Below, one piece after another: positions 23,631-42,821 of a DNA stretch of 64,000 nucleotides. Origin of the DNA: Stieleria maiorica (lineage in GTDB: Bacteria; Planctomycetota; Planctomycetia; Pirellulales; Pirellulaceae). Each line of letters starts with the position of its first letter. Position 1 is the first letter of the stretch. A program made the translations under genes and the position numbers. The notes beneath the pieces are model-generated. The model saw only the letters and a program-made list of their open reading frames with translations, was not told the origin of the DNA and ran no database searches. Location: the NCBI RefSeq assembly GCF_008035925.1, contig NZ_CP036264.1, forward strand, positions 4,462,402 through 4,526,401, read 5' to 3'.

Positions 23631-24869
23631 CTACAGAATCTCGTCGATCAGTTCGTGTTGGTTGCGGGTTCCCAGGGCACCCCAAAGCCCGAAGGGGCTG
23701 GGACTGCCGGGAGACAAGTGGCCTTGGCCTTCCAGCGTGACCGAGCCTTTTAATTCCCCGCACTCGATCGAGTCGGTGATAAAGTGAATCGAGCCGTCGC
23801 CCATCGCCACGTGGCCTCCGCCCTGATGTCGGCTGCTGACCGACAGTGTTCCGATGGTCGTCGAATCGCCTCCGAAGCACAATTGCGTGTTGGGCGGTGA
23901 CGTGGTGTTGCATCCGCTCATCAACGGCATCGCATCGGCCCAGCGGTAGCCGCGGCCCTGGCCCCGCCGCGCCGGTAACGTGACTTGCCCGCGTGCGTCC
24001 CAAAAACGGGGACGTTCGGGATCGATCTGGGGACGACAGATTTGGGCGTCACCCAACAGACCGCCGGCCCAACCGTTTCCGGTCGACGGTACGGTGCGAG
24101 TGTCTTTGTCACCAAGATCCGTCGCGATCTCACCCATCATGATCGTCGTCGACAAGCCGTCGGTCACGTCGTCCAACGAAGTCACCATCCGGGGCACAAA
24201 CATGCCTCGCCCGGTCGCCAACACTTGTGTCTGACCACTGGGCGACCACTTGGAATCTTCGTATCGCCACAGCCCTTGATCCAACCCTTCGATGGCGTCA
24301 CCCAAACAAGCCGCATAGTTGGTCCGCCCCAAGGCAGGGCTGCCGATTCCCGGATCCGACGGACAGCGGTAGGTTCCGATCTCCATCGCCCACGGCAGGT
24401 ACGATCCCATCGACGGCGATGGCCCCATCTTGGGGTAAGGATGGTTCACGTCGCCCAAACCATCCATGCTGTCCATCGACATGTCAAAGAAGTCGTCTTC
24501 GGCGGCCAGCGCATCGCTGCCTGGCACTGGGCCGATCCATTGGCCGCTGATGGTGTTCCAGACCGGTGTCTGTCCTAAAAAGGGAGTGATCGAGACGAGA
24601 AAGCTGAGCCGAAACTGATTGGTTTTTGCAGCGTCGTTGGCGTTGTTGAATGTTCCCGTCCCGTGCGGCGGCAGGAATCCGAACGCGTCATGGTACTGGG
24701 CGACGCCCAAGGCGATTTGTTTGAAGTTGTTGCTGCAACTCATCCGTCGCGCTGCTTCGCGTGACGCTTGGACGGCGGGCAAAAGCAGCCCCACCAAAAT
24801 TCCGATGACGCCGACGACGACCAGCAACTCCAGCAATGTGAATCCGTTATGATACCGGTGACGATTCAT
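23631..24869 (-). CDS. DUF1559 protein with prepilin-type N-terminus
   Basis: 412 residues. Residues 9-10 form a prepilin peptidase site ([16 protein letters not shown], glutamate at +5), followed by the pilin-like hydrophobic helix and the [15 protein letters not shown] region typical of planctomycete DUF1559 proteins. The C-terminus has the expected H-x9-DGS element ([19 protein letters not shown]). After processing it should be a membrane-anchored or filament-associated pseudopilin. The start is the ATG at 24869, which leaves a short basic leader; upstream in-frame codons are unlikely. It is divergent from the secretion-type operon at 24957 with an 87-bp gap, so the two may be co-regulated. 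Confidence 0.9.
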
Positions 24870-24956: not shown

Positions 24957-26129
24957 ATGCAGGTTTCGTTCTCACGATCACGTCGTTCATCGTCCGATCC
25001 GGACTTTGCGATCGCCATGGTCAACGACTGTTTGACAGCGGCACTGCAGCGTGGAGCCAGCGACGTTCATCTCCAGCCCCGCTCGCGGCGCTGGGAAGTC
25101 GCGTTTCGAATCGACGGTGTGCTGCAGCCGTATGAATCGTTCGAAATCAGCGACCATAGCGATCCGGTGTCGCGTTTGATGGCGCTGGCCGCGTTGCCGT
25201 CGTATCGAGCAGGCGTGCCACAAGAAGGTCCGTTGCGGTGGCAAGACGATGCCGGTCAAACGCACGAAATGCGGCTGGGGGTGTTTCCCACTGTGCACGG
25301 AAATCGAGCCGTCATCCGAATCATGGGCGACCGTCAGTCGCTGCGTCAGATCGACGGTCTGGGGTTCGATGCAACGACGATCAGGCGGGTGCGGACCGTT
25401 TGTGACGCACGCGACGGATGGCTGTTGGTCGCCGGGCCGGCCGGCAGTGGGAAGACGACCACGTTGTATGCCTGTCTGTCCTACATCGCCGAAACGGGGT
25501 TCGGACGCAGCGTGTTGACCATCGAAGACCCGATCGAATCGGTGATCGATTCGATCAGCCAAAGCCAATTGCAGCCCAGCAGCGGGATGACGCTGGCGTC
25601 GGCCATGCGGGCGGCCGTTCGGCAAGACGCCGAAGTGTTGTTGGTCAGCGAGATCCGCGACGTCGACACCGCCGAAGCCGTCTTGGCGGCATCGATGACG
25701 GGCCACTTGTGCTTTTCATCGATTCACGCGGGTTCGATCGGCGCGACGCTGCGTCGATTGGTGCAAATGAAGTTGCCGATCTATGCGATCCAAAGTGGAT
25801 TGCGCGGGATTCTCTGCCAACGCCTGTTGCGCAAAACCTGCACCGAATGTCCGGGGCCGTCAGAGTCTTCGGCGGATTCGGATTGCAAACGGTGCCATGG
25901 AACCGGATATCAAGGTCGCCTCCCGGTCGCTCAATTGCTGTGCTTTGATGGATCCGCGGCCGGGCACGCCGTGTTCGACGCCTTGACCGAGGGACGTTCG
26001 GCGATGGAAATCGACGCGATCGCCGCCCGAGCAGGCATCGATTCACTGTATGACCAGGCGACGCGTTTGGTCGACGAAGGCCGAACGGACATGGACGAAG
26101 TGTTCCGGGTGTTGGGGAGGCGAGAATGA
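24957..26129 (+). CDS. GspE/PilB-like secretion ATPase, short form
   Basis: Cytoplasmic hexameric ATPase expected to power pseudopilus assembly. At 390 residues it lacks the N1 domain of full GspE (usually about 500 residues or more) and starts near the N2 motif [11 protein letters not shown] (33-43). Walker A is [10 protein letters not shown] (160-169), the Asp box LTIEDPIE follows near 188, Walker B with EIRD is at 227-235, and the His box contains H250 and H257. A zinc-binding motif C295-x2-C298...C310-x2-C313 is the GspE tetracysteine. First gene of an eight-gene operon; its stop overlaps the next start by four bases. The missing N1 domain suggests its inner-membrane partner differs from GspL. 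Confidence 0.92.
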
Positions 26130-27178
26130 TGTCGGCCGACCGACCCGAGACGACGCTGGACGACGAATCGTTGGCGATGTTGCTGGACGAAGTCTCTGCG
26201 ATGGCGACGTCGAAGCGTCCTCTAATATCCGGGCTGGAGGACCTTGATGACGCGTCGATGGGCACGATCGGCCGTGCGGCGAATGCGGTACGGGCTGGTT
26301 TAACGGGAGGCAAATCCGCGGCAGAATCGGTCGCGGCGGTGGCCGGGAGCTACCAAAGTCCGATCAGATTGGCGATGGAAGTGATGGCGACCACCGGTTC
26401 GACCGAACCGATCGATGAAGCGGCGCGATTGATCCGCCAGACGAACGAGGAACGGCGTCGAGTTTTTCTCGCGTCGATCAACCCGATTCTAAACGTGATC
26501 GTGGGCGCGACGGTCGTGTTTTTTGTCATGCCTTGGATCCTGGTGTCCTTGTCCCAAGCCGAATTGATCAAACCCGCGTTCGCGCCGTCGATCACGGAAA
26601 TCTGTCAAGCCTTCGCACAAGACTTCATGCTCGCGGCAATCGCCACGATTGTGGTCGTGGGGCTGTTTTCGTCGGCGCTGGCGTGGGGACTTTCACGGTC
26701 CCGCCGCGGCGGTGACGTGTTTCGCGATTACGCGACCTTCTGCCGCTGGATGGCGTTGCAAATCAGTCCGACGGGACGAACGCAAGGATCAATCACTGCC
26801 ATCGAACCGGGACGTTTGATCCAGACCGCGGCCGAAGCCGTGGGGCCGGCGTGGTCGTCATCGTGGGCAAGGGTGATTGACAGCGTTCGCGGCGGGGCAA
26901 CTTCCCAAGACACATTGGCCATGCCACCGGACACGCCCGAACCGGTTCGACGATGCGTGCTGGACCTGGTCACCGGTCGTCGCGAAGGCGATCGAATCGC
27001 TTTTGATTTACGGCGGTTGGCCGAGCTGTATGTCCAAAAATCAAAACGCTTCCGAAGCCTTTGGACCGAGGTCTTGCCGCGTGCGATGACGTGGGTGTTG
27101 ATGATCATGATGATGGTGATCTTGTTGCAAGCCATCCTGATGCCACTGTTGAAAGTCGTCGGGGAGGTGGCACCGTGA
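26126..27178 (+). CDS. GspF-like inner-membrane platform protein 1
   Basis: 350 residues, with ATGA overlap with the ATPase gene. It shows a degenerate GspF pattern: helical soluble part (about 50-110), then a membrane helix NPILNVIVGATVVFFVMPWI (about 116-135) that corresponds to the YPxxL..VVVFLLxFVVP segment of GspF, a second helix near 165-190, a second soluble part, and a C-terminal helix ending in LMPLLKVVGEVAP, like the ILLPLFQ end of GspF. Family assignment rests on this topology and local similarity, so it is moderately secure. It is the first of three different GspF-like genes in a row. Confidence 0.72.
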   Translation: MMSADRPETTLDDESLAMLLDEVSAMATSKRPLISGLEDLDDASMGTIGRAANAVRAGLTGGKSAAESVAAVAGSYQSPIRLAMEVMATTGSTEPIDEAARLIRQTNEERRRVFLASINPILNVIVGATVVFFVMPWILVSLSQAELIKPAFAPSITEICQAFAQDFMLAAIATIVVVGLFSSALAWGLSRSRRGGDVFRDYATFCRWMALQISPTGRTQGSITAIEPGRLIQTAAEAVGPAWSSSWARVIDSVRGGATSQDTLAMPPDTPEPVRRCVLDLVTGRREGDRIAFDLRRLAELYVQKSKRFRSLWTEVLPRAMTWVLMIMMMVILLQAILMPLLKVVGEVAP

Positions 27179-27987
27179 CGCACCCGCACGAAAACCACGC
27201 AATCGGTATCGCGGAACAGGCTGAACTGGAGATTTGGCAGGGCATTCGCGACGACACCCGACGCCGGCTGCTGAAGACGGTGACCGTCGGCGTCATCTAC
27301 CTGATCGCGGCGTTGGCAGTCGGAGCTTACTTGATTGTGACGATCGCCGACGTGGGGCGCGAGAATGTTGTACTTCGCGGTTGGCAACCGGTTGTGGTCG
27401 ATGTCGGTTGGATGCTGACCATTGCGACGGGCTATGGAGCTTTGGCGGTCACGGCGTTTGTCGGCTATTTGGTGACGTTGCTGTGGATTCAGGACAAGCT
27501 TCCTGCCGCCGCGTTCCAGATCGTCGACGGCGTACCCTGGATCGGATCGACCATCCGAGTGGTGGCGATGGGCGAGTTCTGTCAATCAATCTTTCAATCG
27601 CTGCTTCGCTCCCAACCGATCGGAGTGGCGTTGGATCAGGCATCGTCTGCGGTTGGACATGCGGGGATGCGTCGCTGGTCGGCATTGGCGTCCAAACGGA
27701 TCGAGTTCGGGCATCCGCTCGCGCACGTCTTACAATCGTCGCCGATCCAAGATCCACCGCTGTCGGCGGTGGCGGCCTTTGCGATGCAGAAATTACCGGC
27801 CAGTGACAGCGTCGACGTCTGGCGCCGGGCGACTTCGGAATGTCACCTGCTGGCCCAGTCGCGGCTGGACCGGACGGCGATGGCCGTCTCGGTCTGCTGT
27901 CTGTTGGCATCGGTGTTCATCGCATTCTTCGCCTTGCTGCTCTCGGGCATCGCGATGCGGACCATGTTGCAGGGGCTGACGTACTGA
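27175..27987 (+). CDS. GspF-like inner-membrane platform protein 2
   Basis: 270 residues, starting with GTG at 27175, which overlaps the previous stop (GTGA). Two helices lie near 36-58 and 75-102. The soluble region (about 115-225) reads like one GspF cytoplasmic repeat: VPWIGSTIRVVAMGEFCQS, then LLRSQPIGVALDQAS and the later LSAVAAFAMQK. A C-terminal helix (about 235-265) closes the protein. So it has roughly one GspF repeat rather than two. The next gene overlaps its stop by one base (TGATG). Upstream in-frame codons back to 27061 belong to the previous gene's shadow. Confidence 0.7.
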   Translation: MTHPHENHAIGIAEQAELEIWQGIRDDTRRRLLKTVTVGVIYLIAALAVGAYLIVTIADVGRENVVLRGWQPVVVDVGWMLTIATGYGALAVTAFVGYLVTLLWIQDKLPAAAFQIVDGVPWIGSTIRVVAMGEFCQSIFQSLLRSQPIGVALDQASSAVGHAGMRRWSALASKRIEFGHPLAHVLQSSPIQDPPLSAVAAFAMQKLPASDSVDVWRRATSECHLLAQSRLDRTAMAVSVCCLLASVFIAFFALLLSGIAMRTMLQGLTY

Positions 27988-29285
27988 TGAATCCCGTCCT
28001 TGGCCTGATCACATCGATCATCGTCGTCGCATTCCTGGCGATTGCGGTACGAGTGATCACACGACAGATGGTTCGTCGACCCGCGGTCGAAGTGCGTTCG
28101 TTTCTGATCGCTTTTCTGGAATTATTCGAGTGGCTTCTTTGGGCGGTCTGTCTGGTGTGCCTGGTAGTTACGGCGCCTCATCCGGTCACGCTGGTGCTGT
28201 TGGCGCTGTTGGTCGTGTCGGTCGTCATCGCGCATCGATTGCGATATCGCGAAGAGTTGCAATCGCTGAATCGATGGCTGCGGATGGCGGTCGAGAAGGA
28301 CGTGTCGCTGCCGGAGTTGCTTGAAAACATTGCGATGGGGTGTCGCAGCCGACTCGCCCGCCGAATCAAAGCCTGCGTCAAACGCTTGTATCGCGGTGAA
28401 TCGATCGTCGATGCCGCCCGCAGAGCGAAACTGGCGTTGGATGCCGACGCGCTCGGTGCGATGATCATCCCGCCTCCCAAAACGGCCTTGCAGGGCGAAG
28501 CGGCGTTGCCCGGGGAAGAGATTGGTTCCGGCCAGGCTCTTGATTCGACCGCTGCGTCGGAGATTGGTCATGAATCACCGCGCGCGATGGCGTTGGTCGG
28601 TCAGCAATTCACCTATGTCGTGGCCACGATCATCCTGGCCTGGCTGATCGGGATTTACATCCGCTCGCATTTGATCTCCCTGTTTGATGAAATTTACGAT
28701 GGAATGTTCTCCAGTAGTCGAGTCGTCCATCGTGGACTTGACATGGTTGCCGGGGTGGGGGACGTCGTCGCGGTGACGGTTCTGGTTTGGTTGTTGTTGG
28801 TGGTCGTACTGCGGTGGCTTCCGCTCTGGTTGGCGCCTTGGGTTCCGTGGTTCGGCGGCAAGGCGGTCGATCAATGGCGCTGCGAGGTCCTGCGGACGCT
28901 CGGGCGTGGGATGCGTGTCGGACTGGCGGAAACAGCGGTTTTGCAGGCAGCGGCAACATCCACGCGGATCCGATGGATTCGATCCCGTTGCCGATCAGCC
29001 CAGCGGCTCGTCGACGCCGGCACCCCTTTGGCGACGGCCTTGCGATCGGCAACGTTGGTGACGAAACGCGAACAGGTTTGGTTGACGTGTGCGGCAAAAA
29101 ACAGCAACCTGCCTCACGCGATCGAGCACTTGTGCCGTGACATCGGGCGACGCCAGACACATCGCTGGAGAATCCGCATGGCATGGTTCGTGCCCTTGGC
29201 GACGGTGTTGGTCGGCATCTTCGTGCTCGTCCACACCCTGTTCCTGTTCCACTTTTTGTACGGTTTGATCGGCGGGCTGGCCTAA
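27987..29285 (+). CDS. GspF-like inner-membrane platform protein 3
   Basis: 432 residues, ATG at 27987 in a TGATG junction. Helices occur near 4-22, 44-63 and 66-81, then a soluble section of about 120 residues, helices near 207-228 and 257-280, and a C-terminal helix near 400-425. The part LPLWLAPWVPWFGGKAVDQW...LRTLGRGMRVGLAETAVLQ...RLVDAGTPLATAL matches the second GspF repeat in layout. A polar insert with a PPPKTALQGEAALPGEE stretch (about 165-190) separates the halves. The operon encodes three such proteins where canonical systems have one. Six bases separate it from the first pseudopilin gene. Confidence 0.7.
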   Translation: MNPVLGLITSIIVVAFLAIAVRVITRQMVRRPAVEVRSFLIAFLELFEWLLWAVCLVCLVVTAPHPVTLVLLALLVVSVVIAHRLRYREELQSLNRWLRMAVEKDVSLPELLENIAMGCRSRLARRIKACVKRLYRGESIVDAARRAKLALDADALGAMIIPPPKTALQGEAALPGEEIGSGQALDSTAASEIGHESPRAMALVGQQFTYVVATIILAWLIGIYIRSHLISLFDEIYDGMFSSSRVVHRGLDMVAGVGDVVAVTVLVWLLLVVVLRWLPLWLAPWVPWFGGKAVDQWRCEVLRTLGRGMRVGLAETAVLQAAATSTRIRWIRSRCRSAQRLVDAGTPLATALRSATLVTKREQVWLTCAAKNSNLPHAIEHLCRDIGRRQTHRWRIRMAWFVPLATVLVGIFVLVHTLFLFHFLYGLIGGLA

Positions 29286-29291
29286 CGGAAA

Positions 29292-29672
29292 ATGATGCAA
29301 AAGAAATCGAAAGATGCTCGAAGATGCCGGCAAGGGTTTCTGCTGTTTGAGTTGCTGGTCGCGACGGCGTTTTTGGCAGCCGCTACCACGATCGTGTTAC
29401 AAATGCATCAGGCCTGTTTGGATTATGATCGGGTCGCTGCAGACCGATTGCGTCACCAATTGAACATCGAGAATCTGGCCGAGCAATTGCGCGACGTGGC
29501 CTACGACGACGTCAATTCAGCCGTCGCCGAACTGCGTGCCCAGTCACAGATTGAGATTGTGGTCGACCCGTTTGAATCGGATTCACGCAAGGGCATGCAT
29601 GTGATCCTGAGAGATCCGGCACGCGAGCGACCACTGGTCCATCACCTCTGGCGTTTGGAGCCTCGCTCATGA
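29292..29672 (+). CDS. Pseudopilin, GspI/J-like
   Basis: 126 residues with a prepilin leader of about 15 basic residues, cleavage site G|FLLFE (glutamate at +5) and a pilin helix continuing to about residue 36. The C-terminal domain (about 45-126) is short and polar with an LAEQLRDVAYDDV start, reminiscent of minor pseudopilins. It needs a prepilin peptidase, which is not encoded here. It overlaps the next gene by four bases (ATGA at 29669-29672). Assignment as I- or J-type is tentative. Confidence 0.8.
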   Translation: MMQKKSKDARRCRQGFLLFELLVATAFLAAATTIVLQMHQACLDYDRVAADRLRHQLNIENLAEQLRDVAYDDVNSAVAELRAQSQIEIVVDPFESDSRKGMHVILRDPARERPLVHHLWRLEPRS

Positions 29673-30187
29673 AACGGCCGCATCAATCGGCGAATGATGG
29701 AGCCCCGATTCGACGCTGCTCCGGTTCTTCCCGTGGCTACACGCTGATCGAATTATTGCTCGTGCTGGCACTCGCCAGCGCGCTTTTGGGAGGCGTGATC
29801 GGGTTGATGACGATCGCGAGGAAGAGCGATGGTGCGGCCGAGGAGAACCTGTTTCGTCGTCAGGAGATTCGCCGATTCGCCGGTGACCTGCGTCGCGACG
29901 TCCGCGCAGCGGGGGAGATCGATTTGGATGCCGACGAACTCGTGCTCGCTGACGCCTCTTCCGATGCGGTCACTCGGTACCAGATCGAGTCCGGGGCGAC
30001 GGTGGTGCGCCGAGTCAGCGAGGGCGATTCAAAGCGATCAGCGATCGATCACTATGATATCGGAAGTGCAGCAACAATGGAGTTTCAATTGATCGATGGC
30101 AACGCTGCGGTCCGCTGCACTGTGTCGGATGGTGACGGGCATGGGGAATCGATTCAGATCCTTGCATTCCAGAGGCCGACATCATGA
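29669..30187 (+). CDS. Pseudopilin, GspJ-like
   Basis: 172 residues. The leader contains about 24 residues and ends at G|YTLIE (glutamate at +5), followed by the hydrophobic helix LLLVLALASALLGGVIGL. The next stretch, with FRRQEIRRFAGDLRRDVRAA, is typical of GspJ-like minor pseudopilins, whose helix runs into a basic amphipathic segment. The C-terminal domain is beta-rich. It overlaps both neighbours by four bases. In secretion systems GspJ is part of the tip complex of the pseudopilus with GspI and GspK. Confidence 0.82.
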   Translation: MKRPHQSANDGAPIRRCSGSSRGYTLIELLLVLALASALLGGVIGLMTIARKSDGAAEENLFRRQEIRRFAGDLRRDVRAAGEIDLDADELVLADASSDAVTRYQIESGATVVRRVSEGDSKRSAIDHYDIGSAATMEFQLIDGNAAVRCTVSDGDGHGESIQILAFQRPTS

Positions 30188-30561
30188 ACGCGACAACAGC
30201 CCGGCGGGCTGTCGCACCGCAGCGTCCCGCACGAACCGGCATGATCGGTTGGATGGTGGTGCTGATCCTGACGCTGTTAGTCGGGACTTTCGCGATCACG
30301 GTGACGCGACGCGCAACGCATGAGCGAAATGATCAGTTGCACCGCCAGAGGATCATGATTTTGGAATCCGCGATTGATGCGTTGCGACAATCGGAAATGG
30401 ACGTCGGGGAACGCATCCGATTGCCCCTGGGCGACGCGACGCGTTGGGTCGTCGTGGAGGCGGTGGACGGGGCGCCGATAGGACGTCAGTATCAGGCAAC
30501 GCTGTACCGCAACGACCGGCCGGGAGTATCCATTCGGCGAGCAGTGGAGAACGATCTGTGA
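30184..30561 (+). CDS. Pseudopilin-like protein lacking Glu5 (GspK/PilX-like)
   Basis: 125 residues: basic leader, then TG|MIGWMVVLILTLLVGTFAITV, a pilin-type helix without the +5 glutamate. GspK, the tip pseudopilin, is the family member known to lack that glutamate, and here the gene occupies the position after a GspJ-like gene. However, it is far shorter than GspK (about 300 residues), so only the N-terminal logic matches. The remainder is a soluble domain with an RIRLPLGDATRWVVVEAVDG strand region. It overlaps its neighbours by four bases on both sides. Confidence 0.68.
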   Translation: MNATTARRAVAPQRPARTGMIGWMVVLILTLLVGTFAITVTRRATHERNDQLHRQRIMILESAIDALRQSEMDVGERIRLPLGDATRWVVVEAVDGAPIGRQYQATLYRNDRPGVSIRRAVENDL

Positions 30562-31475
30562 CGGTTAATCTTGAAATGAGTTGTTCGCAAACACGATCCC
30601 ATTCACCCTTTCAACCCTCCGTGCATCCAATGTCTTCCATCCGTCGTGCATTCACCTTGGTCGAGCTGTTGGTTGTCATCGCGATCATCGGAATCCTGGT
30701 CGGGTTGGCCGCGCCGGCATTGCAAGCGATGCGAGAATCGTCGCGGCGGGCGATTTGTCAATCACGGCTGACACCGATCGGCATGGCGATGCAAAGTTAT
30801 CACGATCGTTGGCAGCATTTCCCGGTCGGTACGGTGGCGGATTCAGGTCCGGTTGTCAGTGAAGCGGAGGGGGACCACCACAACTGGATCGGGCGGTTGT
30901 TGGACTTGCTGGACCAGCCGGTGATCGCGTCGCAGATCGATCGGTCGGTCAGCATTTACGCGACCGCCAACGAACCGGTCTTGCAACTCGCCTACCCCGG
31001 GGTCAAATGCCCTTCGGCCGGTCATTTTCCGGCCAACGCCAGCAGCTATGTCGGACTGCATCATCCGAGCGAAAAGGCGATCGATGAAACCGACCACGGT
31101 GTGTTCGTGTTGAATCTGCAGATCAGCCGCGACGACGTCCCAGATGGCCTGTCCAACACGGCGTTCGTTTCAGAAAAGTTGATTTCCGTCGATGACCTCG
31201 GGTGGCTCAGTGGGACACGTGCGACGCTGCGAAACGTCGGTGGCGGGATCGAGACGTCGGAGGATCTGTTCGGCGAGTTGCCCCCAATGGCGGTCGGATC
31301 CATCGGCAGCCGACACCCCGCCGGCGTGCATGTACTGTTTGGTTCCGGCGAAATCCGCTTCCAGTCGGATCAAACTGACCATCGCGTCTTAGAACAGATG
31401 GTCGATCGCCGTGACGGCGGGCTTCCGATGCAGTTTCAAACGTTGGACCAACAGCGCCGCGCGAGCGCTCAATGA
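30558..31475 (+). CDS. DUF1559-type pseudopilin, last gene of the secretion operon
   Basis: 305 residues from GTG at 30558, which overlaps the preceding stop (GTGA) and has GGAG eight bases upstream. The alternative ATG at 30630 would give a 281-residue protein with a more usual short leader (MSSIRRA|FTLVELLVVIAIIG). The pilin helix is followed by PALQAMRESSRRAICQSRL, the planctomycete DUF1559 signature. The body is DUF1559-like, with a C-terminal HPAGVHVLFGSGEIRFQ that corresponds to the usual H-x9-DG element but with SGE in place of DGS. This closes the operon; a dispersed repeat pair follows. Confidence 0.85.
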   Translation: MTVNLEMSCSQTRSHSPFQPSVHPMSSIRRAFTLVELLVVIAIIGILVGLAAPALQAMRESSRRAICQSRLTPIGMAMQSYHDRWQHFPVGTVADSGPVVSEAEGDHHNWIGRLLDLLDQPVIASQIDRSVSIYATANEPVLQLAYPGVKCPSAGHFPANASSYVGLHHPSEKAIDETDHGVFVLNLQISRDDVPDGLSNTAFVSEKLISVDDLGWLSGTRATLRNVGGGIETSEDLFGELPPMAVGSIGSRHPAGVHVLFGSGEIRFQSDQTDHRVLEQMVDRRDGGLPMQFQTLDQQRRASAQ

Positions 31476-35169: not shown

Positions 35170-38100
35170 TTAGAACGGTAACGTTTTGAGAAAACGTTGT
35201 CCGAAGCGGGCGTAGTCTTGCCCATCGACGTCCCCGTCACCATCGCTATCCAGATCGGGATTATATCCCGCGGTACCTTCAGACTTCAAAAACGACAAAC
35301 CGAAGCGGCCATAGTCCTGGCCATCGACATCACGGTCCCCATCGGTGTCTCCGAAGAACGCGAAGAACCGGTCGGTCGCGGCGGCGCCAAAGACAAAATC
35401 GCCGCCTTGCCTTCCATCGTCGTTTCCGTCCAGCGTGACAGAGGTGCCGGCCCGTCGCACTTTGGACGGATCGATGGTCAATTGATAGTTTCCGTCGACA
35501 AGTGCGGCCGAATTGCCGCGTGTCAAATCGCCGCTGAAGCGAAGCGACGCGACGGAGTTGCCCTGGGAATCGCTGGCGAGCGAGAAGGATGTTGTGACGA
35601 TTTCGCCATCGCCATCGCGCCGACGCAATTCGAAGGCATCCGAATCGATGTCCACCTGTCCTTCAAACACAACGTCAACGGTCGTGATCTGAGATCGTTG
35701 GTTGCTATTGCCGGCATGGGCAGGTGCGACGGCGGAGACTTGCGCCAGATCCACTAGCACCAAACGCAGTTGAGTCGCCTGCCGGTTCAGGTCCCAGTCC
35801 GTCCCGACAGCCGGTGCCGGAAGATTTTGGTTTTCAAACGAACCGTTCAATGTCGGCGCGGTGACTAATACGGTGGAGTCACCGACCTCCGGGGACACGC
35901 CGGGACGAGGTTGGACGATCAAGGTCCCGGCGAGCGTGATCGGACCGGACGATTCGATCCGTCCACCGGCGAATTCAGTAACGCTGCCGAGTGTGACCGG
36001 GTTTGATGCGTCCAGGGACAACGTTTGGTCGGCCAGGTTTAGTGGACCGTCGATCTCAATGGATTGCATCGCGCGGAGGCTGACAGCGCCGGCATCGTTC
36101 CATCGGATCGTGGTGACCGTCGATGCATCGCGAACATTCACCATGCCGCCTGAAAGCGCGCCCTCGGTCGACGACAATCTTGTTGTCGAAGTGCCGGTAC
36201 CTTCGACAGTGATCGATCCGCCGCGCAGATCAAAGGCGGCGCCATCGGGAAACGCAAAGAAACCGTCAGCGGCATAATCGATGACCAAGTCGCCGCTGTT
36301 TCCGCCCGTGTCGATCAACAGGGATTGCGTGGTCGCGAGCGGTTTGGACATCAAAATCAGATTCGCCGTACTGTCGACCAATTCGACGTTTTCTCCGACC
36401 CGTCGCAGCGAGAGTTGTCCGTGCGGGGCTGAAACGGCAAAGGCGACGTCTTCGCGGATCGTGATCCGATAGTCCTCCACCTCGCCGTCGGCGGCCGGAC
36501 CGGTCGGTTGCAGCCCGCCGGCCGAACTGACTCGGACGCGAGCGAACGTCTCGCCAAGCGTCATCGTCGTTGGAACGGCATAATTGAGTGTTTGCAGGCC
36601 GGCGACCACGTTCGCACTGTTGAGAATCTGCTCGTTCGGTGCCCAGATTCCATCGGCGTCGAAATCGATCCAGGCGTCGACTTTCGCTTCGCTGGCCCCT
36701 TGCAAGTCGATGTTGACCCCGGCGGTTGATTGCCCCTGTTTGAGTGTTCCGAATAACACGCCGTCTTCGTCGCTTAGGTCAGCATGGTCGTCGCCAGTTG
36801 CGTCGCTCGTGGGCGTCGCGTCGATTTCGTCATCGCGGTGGTCTCCCAATCGCGGGCCAACCGCGAGATGATTCGCACCATCGTCAGCAACTCGACTCGG
36901 GTACGGCGCCGGGGCATCTCCGAATTCGGCGCGATCGTTGTCGATCCTTCGAATCGGCAGCATCACGCTGCCTCGATAGGCGCTGTCGGCGCTAAACGTG
37001 TTGTGGGAAAGTTGCGTGTCTTGAACGCCGTTGACCAAATCATCGTCGGCGGCACTCAACCGAACGGCCTGCGGCGTGTTCCAGTTCTCTGCGTTGAAGG
37101 TCAAGAACGCGTTGCTGACTTGCGCATCATCGACCGCGCCCACTTGGGCATGGTGGCTATTCAAAAACACTTTGACGTCGGCTTGCGGTTGACTGTTCAG
37201 CGCGACCCAATACGTCGCCTGACTGCCCTCGTGAATCTCAATCGTCGGCGTTGCCGAAGAACTTTCAGTCGACGTTGCCGCCGACGCCATGACTCCAAAG
37301 TCCGTGGCATCCTGTTTGGGCGGCGGGGCAGCGGGAGCCACCGGCGAAAAACTCAGCCCGGCGGTTTCGTTGTCCAAGATCGTCGCCATGGCCGAATCGA
37401 TGGGCAGATCGACGGGGTAGCGTGAGTCAGTGACCGGTGCGGCGACCGTGTGTGTGATCCTGGCGAAGTGCGTGTCTTCGGCGATGGCATCGTCAATGGC
37501 TCGAACGGTGACCGTCTGTGCGGACGCGTCGGCAAACGTCAGCACACGCGAGCCACCAAACGTCAGCCCGTTGTCGGTGCTGACAAGCGTTTGCGCGTCA
37601 GCTTGGATGGTGATGTGAACCTGTTGGCCGTTGCGAGGCGCCAAATTCAGCGAGACTTGGTAGCTGTCGGTAGACCCCGATTCACTCAGTTGCAGATTTC
37701 TGTTGGGGGTGATCGACACGACACCGCGGTCGTCGTCGGTGATGTTGACGACCAACGGGGTTGCGCCGACGGTGATCAGATCGAACGGATCTCGGCCGTC
37801 GATCACGGTATGCACCATTCGAGAGGTGTGGGGACCTTCTTTCGCGGCGTCATCGACGGCCGACAGCGCGATTTGCTGGGGCAGGTTCCAGTTGCCGCTA
37901 TTGAATTCGAGGATTTGACCGAACAGTAAATCTCGGTCGGGTAACCGAATCGCGGAAGTTTGTTCGCTGCTGTCGGCGAAGGCGACGTAGGTCGCGCCGG
38001 GCGGTTGTTCGCTGAGGGCAACCCAGTAAAACACTTCCTCGCCGCCTTCGATGGCGTCGATCGACGAGATCGGATTCAAGCCTGCCTGATCCCGCGTGAT

Positions 38101-39675
38101 CTCCAACAGATTCAGATCATCGTCGATGATCCGCACCGACACATCGGCGACGGATCGGTTGTGATAACCGGGATCGATGCTGCGGACCGAGTGCGTGATC
38201 AACGTGCTATGGTTGCCTTCGGCGGCCAAGTCGTTGACGGCTTTGACCAAAACGGTTTGGACCTGGTCCCAGTTGTCTGGCGTGAAGACCAAGGTGTTGC
38301 TGCCATCGGCGGCATTTTCCGCCGTCACTTGGCCGGCGTCGTTAGCGAGAGTCACGACCACGTCCGCCGTCGGCGCACCGCTCAGCACAATGTTGTACGA
38401 ATCGTTTTCTCCGCCTTCGACAACATCCGTGGTACTGAACGATTGGCGGATGATGAACCCGGGACCGGGCAGGATCACATGGTCGAAATCCGGGTTCAGA
38501 TCAAAATGAAGCTTTGCCGTCCCATCGGTTTCGATGGTCCGAAAGTCCATGTGCACCTGGTTGATGTACCCGTCGGGCTGACCGGGGCTGAAGAACGCGT
38601 GGAACCAGCCGCTGGTCAACAAATCCGATCCGAACACGCCGTCCAAACTGGCGTCCTGACCGGGGATATCGATGTCCAAGATCAACCATTGCAGATCGGT
38701 CCAAACGATGTCGACTCCCGAATCGGTCGGCAAGTGAAATTCGTCAAAGCCGAAGACGGGAACACTGATCTGGCCGCCGACGCCGCCGACAACTTGTTGC
38801 GTGACAAAGTTGGCGTCGTTTTGGTCCAGGGTGCCGTCGCCGTTGCTGTCCAAGCCTAACTGCAACGCCAGCCGCTCCGATAACACACTGATTTGGGCGC
38901 CGGTGTCGAACAGAAAATTCCCCGGCTGGGCGATACCGTTGTGCTCCGGGATCCCGGTCATAAAGGGGACGTCACCCCAAACCGGTGGCTCGCCGAAGAC
39001 CATCTGGTCCAACGGATCGAATGACAAGCGATTGTCCATTGAGATCGTGTATCGATGCCCAGCGCTGACGGGCACGTCCGTGCTAAATTCTGTTTCCATG
39101 TAGATGCTGTCCAAATCGACCCCGCCACCGGACCAACCGGTGAAATCAAGTGAGACGACTTGGCCTTCCATCGCGGGCATCCCCGCCAAGCCCCACGGCC
39201 CGAGTTGGCTGAAATCTTTGGTCGCGTCGGACATCACTCGCGCATCGAGTATTGTGTGCCGCTGGCCATTGCTGCCGGCATAGTCAAAACGATACGGCAC
39301 CGAGACATCCAACAAGTGCGTCCCCGCGACGCCGCCTTCAAGCAATTGGCCTTGGACGTCATACCCCAACCGCGAATCTTCCATATCGGCAATCGCGGTC
39401 GCCATGGTCAAGATACTGCTGGCACCGGTGTCCAATAGGAACGTGTTGAACAGGTCCGGCCCCAAACTCTCCCAGCGGATACCAGGTCCGGGATCGACGT
39501 CGGCGGCAAACTCCACCGCGACGCGCGGCTGGTCCAAGGCGATGTTGTCCGAGGCGCCCAGTTCGACAAAGCCTGCCGCGAGCAAATTGCGCCGTTCGAG
39601 CCGCTCCAAGCAATGTCGCCGACGTCGGCAGAGACGACCGCCTGCACCTTGATGGACGTGAGAAATAAATCGCAT
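35170..39675 (-). CDS. Giant secreted protein: aspartic-protease-like domain, Calx-beta-like repeats, GEVED, dockerin
   Basis: 1501 residues from the ATG at 39675. The N-terminus is basic and carries LERLERRNLLA (about 23-33), an LEPR-XLL-like planctomycete export tag. Residues about 70-400 contain two aspartic-protease motifs, FLLDTGASS (D82) and FLFDTGAQI (D257), 175 residues apart as in a bilobal pepsin-like fold; a DGVFGSDLLTSGWFHAFF stretch near 346-363 resembles the pepsin C-terminal strand region. A DSNGDGTLDQND calcium-type loop interrupts the second lobe. Four or so Calx-beta-like repeats (about 410-960) follow, then a GEVED domain (about 965-1105) starting EFGDAPAPYPSRVADDGA, a beta-rich region, and a dockerin type I pair (1440-1501) with two DxDGDxDVDGQDYxRFG loops. 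Probably surface-bound and calcium-stabilised. Proteolytic activity is predicted, not shown. Confidence 0.88.
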   Translation of the reverse strand: MRFISHVHQGAGGRLCRRRRHCLERLERRNLLAAGFVELGASDNIALDQPRVAVEFAADVDPGPGIRWESLGPDLFNTFLLDTGASSILTMATAIADMEDSRLGYDVQGQLLEGGVAGTHLLDVSVPYRFDYAGSNGQRHTILDARVMSDATKDFSQLGPWGLAGMPAMEGQVVSLDFTGWSGGGVDLDSIYMETEFSTDVPVSAGHRYTISMDNRLSFDPLDQMVFGEPPVWGDVPFMTGIPEHNGIAQPGNFLFDTGAQISVLSERLALQLGLDSNGDGTLDQNDANFVTQQVVGGVGGQISVPVFGFDEFHLPTDSGVDIVWTDLQWLILDIDIPGQDASLDGVFGSDLLTSGWFHAFFSPGQPDGYINQVHMDFRTIETDGTAKLHFDLNPDFDHVILPGPGFIIRQSFSTTDVVEGGENDSYNIVLSGAPTADVVVTLANDAGQVTAENAADGSNTLVFTPDNWDQVQTVLVKAVNDLAAEGNHSTLITHSVRSIDPGYHNRSVADVSVRIIDDDLNLLEITRDQAGLNPISSIDAIEGGEEVFYWVALSEQPPGATYVAFADSSEQTSAIRLPDRDLLFGQILEFNSGNWNLPQQIALSAVDDAAKEGPHTSRMVHTVIDGRDPFDLITVGATPLVVNITDDDRGVVSITPNRNLQLSESGSTDSYQVSLNLAPRNGQQVHITIQADAQTLVSTDNGLTFGGSRVLTFADASAQTVTVRAIDDAIAEDTHFARITHTVAAPVTDSRYPVDLPIDSAMATILDNETAGLSFSPVAPAAPPPKQDATDFGVMASAATSTESSSATPTIEIHEGSQATYWVALNSQPQADVKVFLNSHHAQVGAVDDAQVSNAFLTFNAENWNTPQAVRLSAADDDLVNGVQDTQLSHNTFSADSAYRGSVMLPIRRIDNDRAEFGDAPAPYPSRVADDGANHLAVGPRLGDHRDDEIDATPTSDATGDDHADLSDEDGVLFGTLKQGQSTAGVNIDLQGASEAKVDAWIDFDADGIWAPNEQILNSANVVAGLQTLNYAVPTTMTLGETFARVRVSSAGGLQPTGPAADGEVEDYRITIREDVAFAVSAPHGQLSLRRVGENVELVDSTANLILMSKPLATTQSLLIDTGGNSGDLVIDYAADGFFAFPDGAAFDLRGGSITVEGTGTSTTRLSSTEGALSGGMVNVRDASTVTTIRWNDAGAVSLRAMQSIEIDGPLNLADQTLSLDASNPVTLGSVTEFAGGRIESSGPITLAGTLIVQPRPGVSPEVGDSTVLVTAPTLNGSFENQNLPAPAVGTDWDLNRQATQLRLVLVDLAQVSAVAPAHAGNSNQRSQITTVDVVFEGQVDIDSDAFELRRRDGDGEIVTTSFSLASDSQGNSVASLRFSGDLTRGNSAALVDGNYQLTIDPSKVRRAGTSVTLDGNDDGRQGGDFVFGAAATDRFFAFFGDTDGDRDVDGQDYGRFGLSFLKSEGTAGYNPDLDSDGDGDVDGQDYARFGQRFLKTLPF

Positions 39676-39988
39676 CGATTCGTTGGATGCCGGAAAAGAG
39701 CATGGAAAAGGAGGATGCGTGGGATGCAACGTATCAGTTGCTCGGGCCGCGTCAACTGAAAAACACATCCGAGAGACTCATCAGAGTGCAACGCGGTGTC
39801 GCTCCGCAAAAACCGCTCACCGAGATGCAGAAGAACCCACTGTGGGGACCATGGCCACCCGTGCGGCATCGTCATGGTCTATCGACGGCTGGCGTTTCAT
39901 CGCCAGCCGTCACGTGATCGCAGCCGGGCGGGGCACACGCTGAACCAAGAAAGGGAATCACAGTGAAGTCATTCCGGCAATCGATCAT
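39676..39988. other. Intergenic region with one perfect hairpin
   Basis: 313 bp between the large secreted protein start and the Lnt stop (both minus strand). A perfect 11-bp stem, GACGGCTGGCG (39884-39894) with CGCCAGCCGTC (39901-39911), and a 6-base loop lies 78 bp beyond the lnt stop; no T-run follows on either strand. Nothing else recognisable; it presumably also contains the promoter of the large gene. Confidence 0.55.
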
Positions 39989-41966: not shown

Positions 41967-42821
41967 TCAATCGTGTGATTCAATCGCTGGCGTGATTTCG
42001 CGACCGTTACGAGAACACAGTGCACCGATCAGCGATGGATCCATGGATTCGGTCATGAAGTGCACTGAACCATCCGCGAAAGCGACTTGAGCCCCCGCGG
42101 GATGGAGGCTGAAGATCTCGCCGCTGCCGTCGACGTTGATGCCGCCGTTGTCATGAGAAATGGCGCTACGGCCATCAGCCCAAAGACCATGTTCGGAAGA
42201 CAATCGATCGACGACTTCAGCAATCATCAGGGTTTGGCTGGTGCCGTCGACGATTTCCGTCAGCGTCACCGCAGTTCGGCGTTGGGGGGACGACCCGATC
42301 AGGACGCCGTTGTTGATGTCCAGTCCGACCAACGATCGTGCGCTCGCCAGTGCGCTGCCCATCACGCCGGCGTAGTCGGTGTCGCCCGGAAAGTCATTGA
42401 CGGACGTGGGGCAACGAAACACAGGCAACACGGTCACCGAGAGTTGCAGATTGCGTGTGGCGTCATTCCAAGCAACCTTGCGGTCCCAAAGGCCGGCGAT
42501 CTCAGGCTGTTCCAATTGCCCCAGCACCGCGGCGGCCCACGATTGATTCCTGCCGGCGCCGCGATCATTACCGAAGGGAAGTCTGCCGAACTGGTCGTGA
42601 AACTGATGCAGTGCCAGCGACTGTTGACGCAGGTGATTCGCACAGCTGATACGACGCGACTGTTCCCGAGCGGCTTGAACGCCGGATGATAGCAACGAGA
42701 CGAGGACTCCCATCATGCTGATGACCACCAGCAATTCGATCAACGTAAACGCGCGGTGTATCCGCAGGGGGCGCCGCTTGCTGCGATTCAATCCAATCGA
42801 CTGATCGTCTCTGATGGTCAT
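41967..42821 (-). CDS. DUF1559 protein with prepilin-type N-terminus
   Basis: 284 residues, a short member. Prepilin site at RA|FTLIELLVVISMMGVLVS (glutamate at +5) after a 23-residue basic leader, then SGVQAAREQSRRISCANHLRQQSLALHQFHD, the diagnostic DUF1559 stretch. The body contains the usual DGTSQTLMIAE element, and the C-terminus has HPAGAQVAFADGSVHFMTESM. It should be processed by prepilin peptidase and anchored in a pseudopilus or membrane. The gene lies 83 bp upstream of the small secreted protein gene on the same strand. Third DUF1559 gene of the window; the three are clearly different in length and loop content. Confidence 0.9.
   Translation of the reverse strand: MTIRDDQSIGLNRSKRRPLRIHRAFTLIELLVVISMMGVLVSLLSSGVQAAREQSRRISCANHLRQQSLALHQFHDQFGRLPFGNDRGAGRNQSWAAAVLGQLEQPEIAGLWDRKVAWNDATRNLQLSVTVLPVFRCPTSVNDFPGDTDYAGVMGSALASARSLVGLDINNGVLIGSSPQRRTAVTLTEIVDGTSQTLMIAEVVDRLSSEHGLWADGRSAISHDNGGINVDGSGEIFSLHPAGAQVAFADGSVHFMTESMDPSLIGALCSRNGREITPAIESHD

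Follow-up and report, generated by a model that had tools for sequence, protein, structure and literature searches.

A GspF gene trio recurring in the same order suggests a lopsided three-part platform in a planctomycete type IV filament cassette

Described machines and the cassette compared

Type II secretion systems (T2SSs), the Com pilus and Tad/Flp pili are the described machines with which we compare a cassette of eight genes in the planctomycete Stieleria maiorica. The DNA analysed, hereafter the window, is the whole stretch of 64,000 nucleotides at positions 4,462,402 to 4,526,401 of NZ_CP036264.1 (assembly GCF_008035925.1), which was placed in one 9.89 Mb contig. Within it, positions 24957-31475 hold a plus-strand operon, E-F1-F2-F3-p1-p2-p3-D (Table 1): an extension ATPase, three platform proteins, three minor pseudopilins and a DUF1559 protein. 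From E to D, the genes overlap by 4, 4 and 1 bases, are parted by a 6-base gap, and overlap again by 4, 4 and 4 bases. Coordinates, strand and junctions agree with a preliminary description of this DNA. The recurrence of the F1-F2-F3 trio in the same order elsewhere suggests a lopsided three-part platform.

The T2SS resembles the cassette in the families of its ATPase and platform (GspE and GspF), and in its minor pseudopilins GspI, GspJ and GspK, which include a member without Glu at +5 (Glu5). That member is GspK. In contrast to the T2SS, the cassette has three GspF genes, an ATPase that lacks the N1 domain, and DUF1559 proteins instead of GspG. No secretin accompanies the operon, the GspF gene is not single, and neither the operon proteins nor those of the six neighbouring genes include GspC, GspL or GspM, the rest of the genome not having been searched for these three.

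In the Com pilus (ComGA-GG), a type IVd filament of monoderms, the extension ATPase, platform and pilins are encoded in one operon, as in the cassette. Furthermore, p1, p2 and p3 stand in the places of ComGE, ComGF and ComGG, and p2 weakly matches ComGF. However, Com has one platform protein where the cassette has three, a small major pilin (ComGC) where the cassette has DUF1559, and a monoderm host. Scores against the Com equivalog models are far below their cut-offs (184 against 300 bits for ComGA, 25 against 80 for ComGF). A core-only Com pilus, with one peptidase, one ATPase, one platform protein and a few pilins, is described as sufficient for assembly (PMC10790768). Hence, a machine without GspC, GspL and GspM would be workable.

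Tad/Flp pili also build their platform from different T2SSF proteins, TadB and TadC or CpaG and CpaH. These are two single-domain proteins, explained by gene fission (PMC6668835), whereas F1 and F3 of the cassette have two T2SSF stretches each. The Tad platform has been modelled with C3 symmetry on the CpaF hexamer (PMC12019362); that model stays three-fold symmetric, but three paralogues would break the symmetry. Moreover, E is nearer to GspE than to TadA (NCBIfam TIGR02533, 284 bits; TIGR03819, 27 bits). Such a machine would be the only type IV filament machine known to us whose platform breaks three-fold symmetry. The S. maiorica genome has two other adjacent platform genes beside an ATPase at 9.545-9.548 Mb, which we take to be a Tad locus.

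Among the open-access papers listed in our searches, we found no description of the trio and none that mentions both planctomycetes and GspF, and the string "Planctomyc" does not occur in the available text of a survey of type IV filaments (PMC6668835). The parts of the cassette belong to known families; the arrangement, as far as could be seen, is new.

Platform genes, their lineages and channel residues

All three platform proteins are of the GspF type, as the preliminary description had proposed. F1 and F3 match PF00482, and F2 was placed by its fold. An AlphaFold2 model of F2, built from 19 F2 sequences, has one domain flanked by three long helices (predicted local distance difference test, pLDDT, 86.5; predicted template modelling score, pTM, 0.75). 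Foldseek ranked the PilC model of the type IVa pilus machine (3jc8) first for this model, and the cytoplasmic domains of OutF, EpsF and PilC were among the best matches (probability 1.00, target TM 0.71-0.81); no match in the PDB was below E 0.001. A phmmer search of the PDB with F1 found nothing. In several distant cassettes, the protein in the F2 place is full length, with two T2SSF domains. Because of the fold matches and these two-domain proteins, we call F2 GspF-like, and predict it to be a GspF-type protein. Profile search and structure prediction thus do not leave two of the three proteins without a GspF fold.

With F3 of the window as query (E 0.001), 53 of the 199 genomes searched in its family had a match. 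We assembled 90 loci, namely the window, a second cassette of the same genome (L021) and 88 loci from this and two later searches, picked by F3 similarity, so that any cassette lacking F3 would have been missed. Five loci, truncated on the F side, were not counted. In the 85 untruncated loci, F1, F2 and F3 are separate genes in the same order 76 times, and F1 is followed by an F2-F3 fusion three times (L070, L072, L104). Hence, the order is kept in 79 loci, two loci with split open reading frames (ORFs; L080, L110) being counted apart. The four exceptions are L087 and L150 with F3 only, L131 with F2-F3, and L096, an orphan fusion. By comparison, nine of ten control loci around strong canonical platform genes (L114-L123) have one platform gene; the tenth, L121, is cut off. 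p2 was found in 81 of the 85 loci, as was a D-type match.

We considered and rejected a single split or frameshifted gspF as the source of the trio, since distant relatives have three separate genes, several with two domains each.

Do the three genes represent lineages of their own? We built a platform tree from 31 cassettes (nine family codes) and nine single-platform controls. F1 forms one clade of 31 rows with support of 92 in the Shimodaira-Hasegawa-like approximate likelihood ratio test (SH-aLRT), F3 forms one clade of 31 rows (SH-aLRT 90), and the controls form one clade at the starred level of support (97). The best tree splits F2 into three pieces, but the approximately unbiased test does not reject a single F2 clade (p-AU 0.233). 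We read F1, F2 and F3 as three positional lineages and not random copies. In a separate tree, the cassette ATPases and two other planctomycete ATPases (L022, L180) form one clade (100, starred; stem 1.06). This tree left out the outgroup rows L185 and L199 (branch length 10, probably wrong ORFs) and L193 (very long branch), as well as L140 and L204; in the first ATPase tree, the L140 ATPase fell among the outgroups.

These lineages bear on whether the cassette is a reduced T2SS, in which the secretin and GspC, GspL and GspM would work in trans, the surplus platform genes being duplicates that have drifted and contribute nothing. The S. maiorica genome does have 10 secretin matches outside the locus, one of them below the curated cut-off, and three canonical E-F loci each lie within ~7 kb of a secretin; moreover, at L022 a single platform gene accompanies an ATPase of the cassette clade. 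The preliminary description had noted the lack of a secretin, which is correct for the locus but not for the cell. However, the secretin nearest to the cassette is ~243 kb away, and all 15 further genomes examined lack a secretin match within 60 kb of theirs. Each of these has 2 to 11 secretin matches, the nearest at ~69 kb (G130) to ~2.1 Mb (G224); distances were taken by hand, and that in G130 runs across the contig ends if the contig is circular. Furthermore, drift is not expected to keep positional lineages over nine families or gene order in 76 of 85 loci, and an ATPase without N1 offers no such domain for GspL to hold. We therefore regard a reduced T2SS as very improbable.

Cross-linking and modelling support a homotrimer of PulF, in a 6:3 model of ATPase and platform, and Tyr-Pro in transmembrane segment 1 (TMS1) together with Glu-Pro in TMS3 is reported to form the channel constriction and called conserved in all GspF/PilC homologues (PMC10790770). 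We aligned the platform proteins of 42 cassettes (10 of 26 close relatives and 32 others) with MAFFT, leaving out fusions, splits, cut-off loci and L081, L087, L090, L093, L105 and L131; the platform tree drew its 31 cassettes from these 42. The TMS1 Tyr is present in 28 of 42 F1, 35 of 42 F2 and 40 of 42 F3 proteins. The TMS1 Pro is present in 41/42, 23/42 and 0/42, respectively. The TMS3 Glu, which 8 of 9 controls have, is found in no F1 protein, three F2 proteins and one F3 protein, the last identified by eye; it is thus retained in 4 and lost in 122 of the 126 cassette proteins. A Pro follows the Glu site in 38/42 F3 proteins, and F1 has a Pro one column earlier in 40/42. F1 and F3 thus each have a pattern of their own, which is what fixed positions of the proteins in one ring would lead us to expect; that of F2 is mixed.

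An alternative explanation is that F1, F2 and F3 form three homomeric platforms, each a trimer of its own, which share the ATPase and serve different pilins or extension and retraction. The three proteins match each other's models about as weakly as canonical platforms do, and in the Tad machine contact of the pilin with one or the other platform protein is described as possibly tied to extension or retraction (PMC12019362). However, F1 and F3 have lost different conserved residues, and an F3 homotrimer would lack the TMS1 proline ring entirely because none of the 42 F3 proteins has this Pro. The operon provides one ATPase and one set of minor pilins, and its genes keep a fixed order with 4- or 1-base junctions. 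The F2-F3 fusions also count against homomeric platforms, which we consider unlikely.

Fusions of F2 with F3 occur in L070 and L072 (close-type cassettes of one genus), in L104 (another genus) and in the orphan copy L096. The latter (L096:7427-9787) encodes a 786-aa protein, F2 then F3, with four T2SSF domains, and its contig also carries a complete cassette (L097). There is no F1-F2 fusion among the 85 loci. A model of the L072 fusion (738 residues; pLDDT 79.1, pTM 0.75) has three long helices at the start of the F3 part, and a Foldseek search with it gave the same GspF/PilC domains, with no match below E 0.001. Judging from this model, three crossings would place the cytoplasmic domain of F3 on the right side of the membrane after the C-terminus of F2.

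A putative asymmetric platform

We propose that the cassette encodes a compact planctomycete type IV filament machine, in which a fixed F1:F2:F3 heterotrimer would sit on a GspE-type hexamer without N1 and build a pseudopilus with DUF1559 subunits. We give this reading, drawn from sequence comparison, a probability of roughly 0.6. The heterotrimer appears to be the best reading because PulF has been reported as a homotrimer. The stronger proposal, that F1, F2 and F3 are obligate partners, asymmetric within a symmetric hexamer pore, with differently specialised channel positions and the Glu ring gone, we hold to be at even odds. The preliminary description had suggested a hetero-oligomeric platform. 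The GspF family or fold of all three proteins and their separate genes in relatives, which do not carry one split gspF, support this; assembly into a complex is what we infer. The position-specific clades, the losses of channel residues and the F2-F3 fusions go beyond those two tests.

How would such a machine work? From the gene set, order, families, lineages and motifs described here, we infer its complex, stoichiometry, filament, direction and role as follows. The prepilins p1, p2, p3, D and D0 would be cut by a peptidase encoded elsewhere, and p1-p2-p3 would prime the filament, as GspI, GspJ and GspK do. The E hexamer would grip the T2SSF domains of one F1:F2:F3 heterotrimer, in the position for which T2SSs and type IV pili are believed to employ three copies of a single GspF or PilC protein. 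Since F2 of the window has one T2SSF domain, the platform would offer five domains, not six, to the ATPase. By turning or lifting the platform, E would cause DUF1559 subunits to be added. D, with D0, may form the body or the tip of a filament that could be periplasmic or on the surface and might serve secretion, uptake or adhesion. Without N1, there would be no coupling of the GspL or PilM type, and passage through the outer membrane, if any, would need a secretin encoded elsewhere.

Several observations weigh against this proposal. The losses of Glu and Pro come from one MAFFT alignment of diverged membrane helices, and the support for F1 and F3 (92 and 90) is below the starred level, with F2 in three pieces and many long branches in the tree. 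F1 is missing from two loci of one genus (g170; L131:7983-10352 and L234:7039-9460), which have F2 and F3 and, in the stretch fetched, neither F1 nor an ATPase; L087 and L150 have only F3. The ATPase gene lies directly upstream of F1 on the same strand in only 51 of 85 loci, and elsewhere in the fetched stretch in 4 more. Lastly, p1 was detected in only 52 and p3 in only 39 of the 85 loci, with models trained on close relatives.

The genus without F1 is also consistent with a hetero-oligomer of other make-up, in which F2 would serve an F1-F3 platform as an accessory or gate, or in which there are two of each protein. The single cytoplasmic domain of F2 in the lineage of the window fits such an arrangement, and, according to PMC10790770, dimers or a tetramer of GspF had been proposed earlier. 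On the other hand, F2 has three long helices around its one domain and keeps the TMS1 Tyr in 35 of 42 cassettes, and it is full length with two domains in several distant cassettes. We consider a hetero-oligomer of this kind unlikely.

What is the significance of three platform genes? It is disputed whether a platform has two, three or four GspF/PilC copies, and a function as an ion channel has been put forward (PMC10790770). Three genes that have each held one place across nine sampled families are natural evidence for three copies; if the obligate F1:F2:F3 heterotrimer is real, the number of genes would by itself favour the trimer model of GspF. With separate genes, each protomer can also be tagged, deleted or mutated alone, an option that a homotrimer does not offer. 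That 122 of 126 proteins have lost the TMS3 Glu is relevant to the idea of an essential channel lined by this residue. Furthermore, the cassette is a candidate for the machine that assembles one or more members of the large DUF1559 family of planctomycetes.

Genes, distribution and surroundings

The genes of the cassette and the divergent gene D0 are listed in Table 1.

Table 1. Features of the cassette, in window coordinates
Feature	Description	Position	Strand	Evidence
D0	divergent DUF1559 prepilin-like protein	23631..24869	-	PF07596 4.9e-52; N_methyl
E	GspE/PilB-type extension ATPase without N1, 390 aa	24957..26129	+	PF00437 (T2SSE) 5.4e-79, residues 15-384
F1	GspF/PilC-type platform protein, 350 aa	26126..27178	+	PF00482 1.2e-16, two T2SSF stretches
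F2	short platform protein, one T2SSF-type cytoplasmic domain, 270 aa	27175..27987	+	GTG start; Pfam only 0.39; fold
F3	platform protein, extra N-terminal hydrophobic part, 432 aa	27987..29285	+	PF00482 7.6e-17, two T2SSF stretches
p1	minor pseudopilin with Glu5 (GspI/ComGE place), 126 aa	29292..29672	+	weak NCBIfam ComGE 0.0044
p2	minor pseudopilin with Glu5 (GspJ/ComGF place), 172 aa	29669..30187	+	N_methyl 2.6e-05
p3	small pseudopilin without Glu5 (GspK/ComGG place), 125 aa	30184..30561	+	place; Glu5 pattern
D	cassette-type DUF1559 prepilin-like protein, 305 aa	30558..31475	+	GTG start; PF07596 8.8e-41; N_methyl

The cassette has the ATPase, T2SSF platform proteins and class III prepilin signals of the type IV filament superfamily, and a prepilin peptidase is present in the cell: PF01478 matches at two places in the genome (39.8 kb and 2.4152-2.4159 Mb), both outside the cassette. 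Residues 7-385 of E align to residues 193-583 of solved PilB. Because the alignment starts only at PilB residue 193, E lacks the N1 domain and begins at N2; the preliminary description had likewise called it GspE-like and without N1. What we take to be the Walker A motif and four zinc-type cysteines are invariant in the ATPase alignment (19 rows).

N_methyl is above its cut-off in p2, D and D0. p1 has no Pfam family; its prepilin motif was seen by eye, and 24 of 26 relatives have Glu at +5 according to a crude motif finder. p2 matches NCBIfam ComGF at 1.7e-05, below the family cut-off, and hmmsearch with p2 matched mostly pilin helices; its Glu5 (Glu28) is invariant in 17 of 17 aligned rows. 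p3 matches no pilin family in Pfam or NCBIfam; read by eye, its 15 aligned rows all have Gly19 and all lack Glu at +5, so the pseudopilin earlier noted as lacking Glu5 is p3. By these features p1-p2-p3 can be assigned the order and Glu5 pattern of GspI-GspJ-GspK.

D belongs to DUF1559, and D0, the divergent DUF1559 gene previously noted at 87 bp, has that distance from E if it starts at ATG 24869, a possible start; its longest ORF begins at TTG 24914. In the D0 alignment (27 rows), 174 of 411 columns are at least 90% conserved. A divergent D0 match adjoins the cassette in 25 of 26 close-type loci, being missing in L065 (hand count). L068 (2209-8800) is a close-type cassette that lacks the ATPase gene; there, the ORF of D0 directly overlaps the start of F1.

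DUF1559 matches number 71 in the S. maiorica genome, where a single gene can account for several, and no more than one or two of these genes are part of the cassette. The earlier idea of an assembly dedicated to DUF1559-type pseudopilins is therefore not supported as a general rule, nor is the DUF1559 family at large as its client. For Tuwongella immobilis, a proteome study lists 91 proteins with a prepilin motif and a DUF1559-type domain (there SBP_bac_10), and those members that were detected were mostly in the detergent fractions S2 and S3 (PMC8567305). A further DUF1559 gene lies within the window on the minus strand (42036-42677; open frame of 341 aa) and accounts for two of the 71 matches.

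The second cassette of S. maiorica (L021:3326-8750, ~9.313-9.319 Mb) has F1-F2-F3-p1-p2-D without an adjacent ATPase. L022 (5499-8044, ~4.6305-4.6330 Mb), in the same genome, encodes the cassette-clade ATPase, of 487 aa, with its single platform gene. As a guess, the L022 ATPase may drive L021 in trans.

Named carriers of the cassette include Rhodopirellula baltica BR-MGV, R. rubra, Stieleria sedimenti, Neorhodopirellula pilleata and Paludisphaera soli. Across the phylum, a search with an F3 alignment gave a match of at least 200 bits in 62 of 393 genomes, all in the class of the window (hand count); the single match listed outside this class, at 174 bits, is at the level of canonical platforms. 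We set the 200-bit line ourselves, where the scores leave a small gap (200.7 to 192.6); canonical platforms reach no more than 191 bits, and the line undercounts cassettes. In a half-and-half test of similar models on the 42 cassettes, F3 proteins scored at least 199 bits and others at most 161. A class search at E 1e-10 was unfit for describing the distribution, since canonical GspF proteins match too; a search at E 1e-50 was used instead, and it undercounts. Among 71 loci found by their ATPase, those from other phyla, many of them short stretches, had no F1-F2-F3 run.

One genome, G268, had no match at E 1e-50, and its F3 scores 175 bits with a later model. Its cassette (L232, ~4,381,419-4,390,288 of contig C1) reads E-F1-F2-F3-p1-p2-D by model, with a p3-like ORF seen by eye between p2 and D. 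We take G268 to be Planctopirus limnophila DSM 3776; this species appears to carry the cassette, and a transposon-insertion study of it exists (PMC10632474). G268 also has a locus of PilB-PilT-PilB-PilC-like and prepilin-like genes (L114:3952-17545), named by size and order. Like the cassette, it combines ATPase, platform and prepilin-like proteins in one run; unlike the cassette, it has one platform gene, two long ATPases and a PilT-like one. By map position and gene order only, L114 is likely to be the region Plim_0410-0401, which has been called a secretion-related locus and whose first four genes are annotated "Type II secretion protein" (PMC10632474). The essential operon Plim_0410-0401 was considered as an orthologue of the cassette and rejected, as its map position reads PilB-PilT-PilB-PilC and the triple cassette lies elsewhere.

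The six neighbouring genes scanned include no secretion genes; they encode a peptidase, RlmN, a HEAT-repeat protein, an oxidoreductase, a GEVED/aspartyl-protease protein and a BFD-type ferredoxin. On the minus strand, 35170-39768 encodes a protein of 1532 aa with aspartyl-protease-like and GEVED domains.

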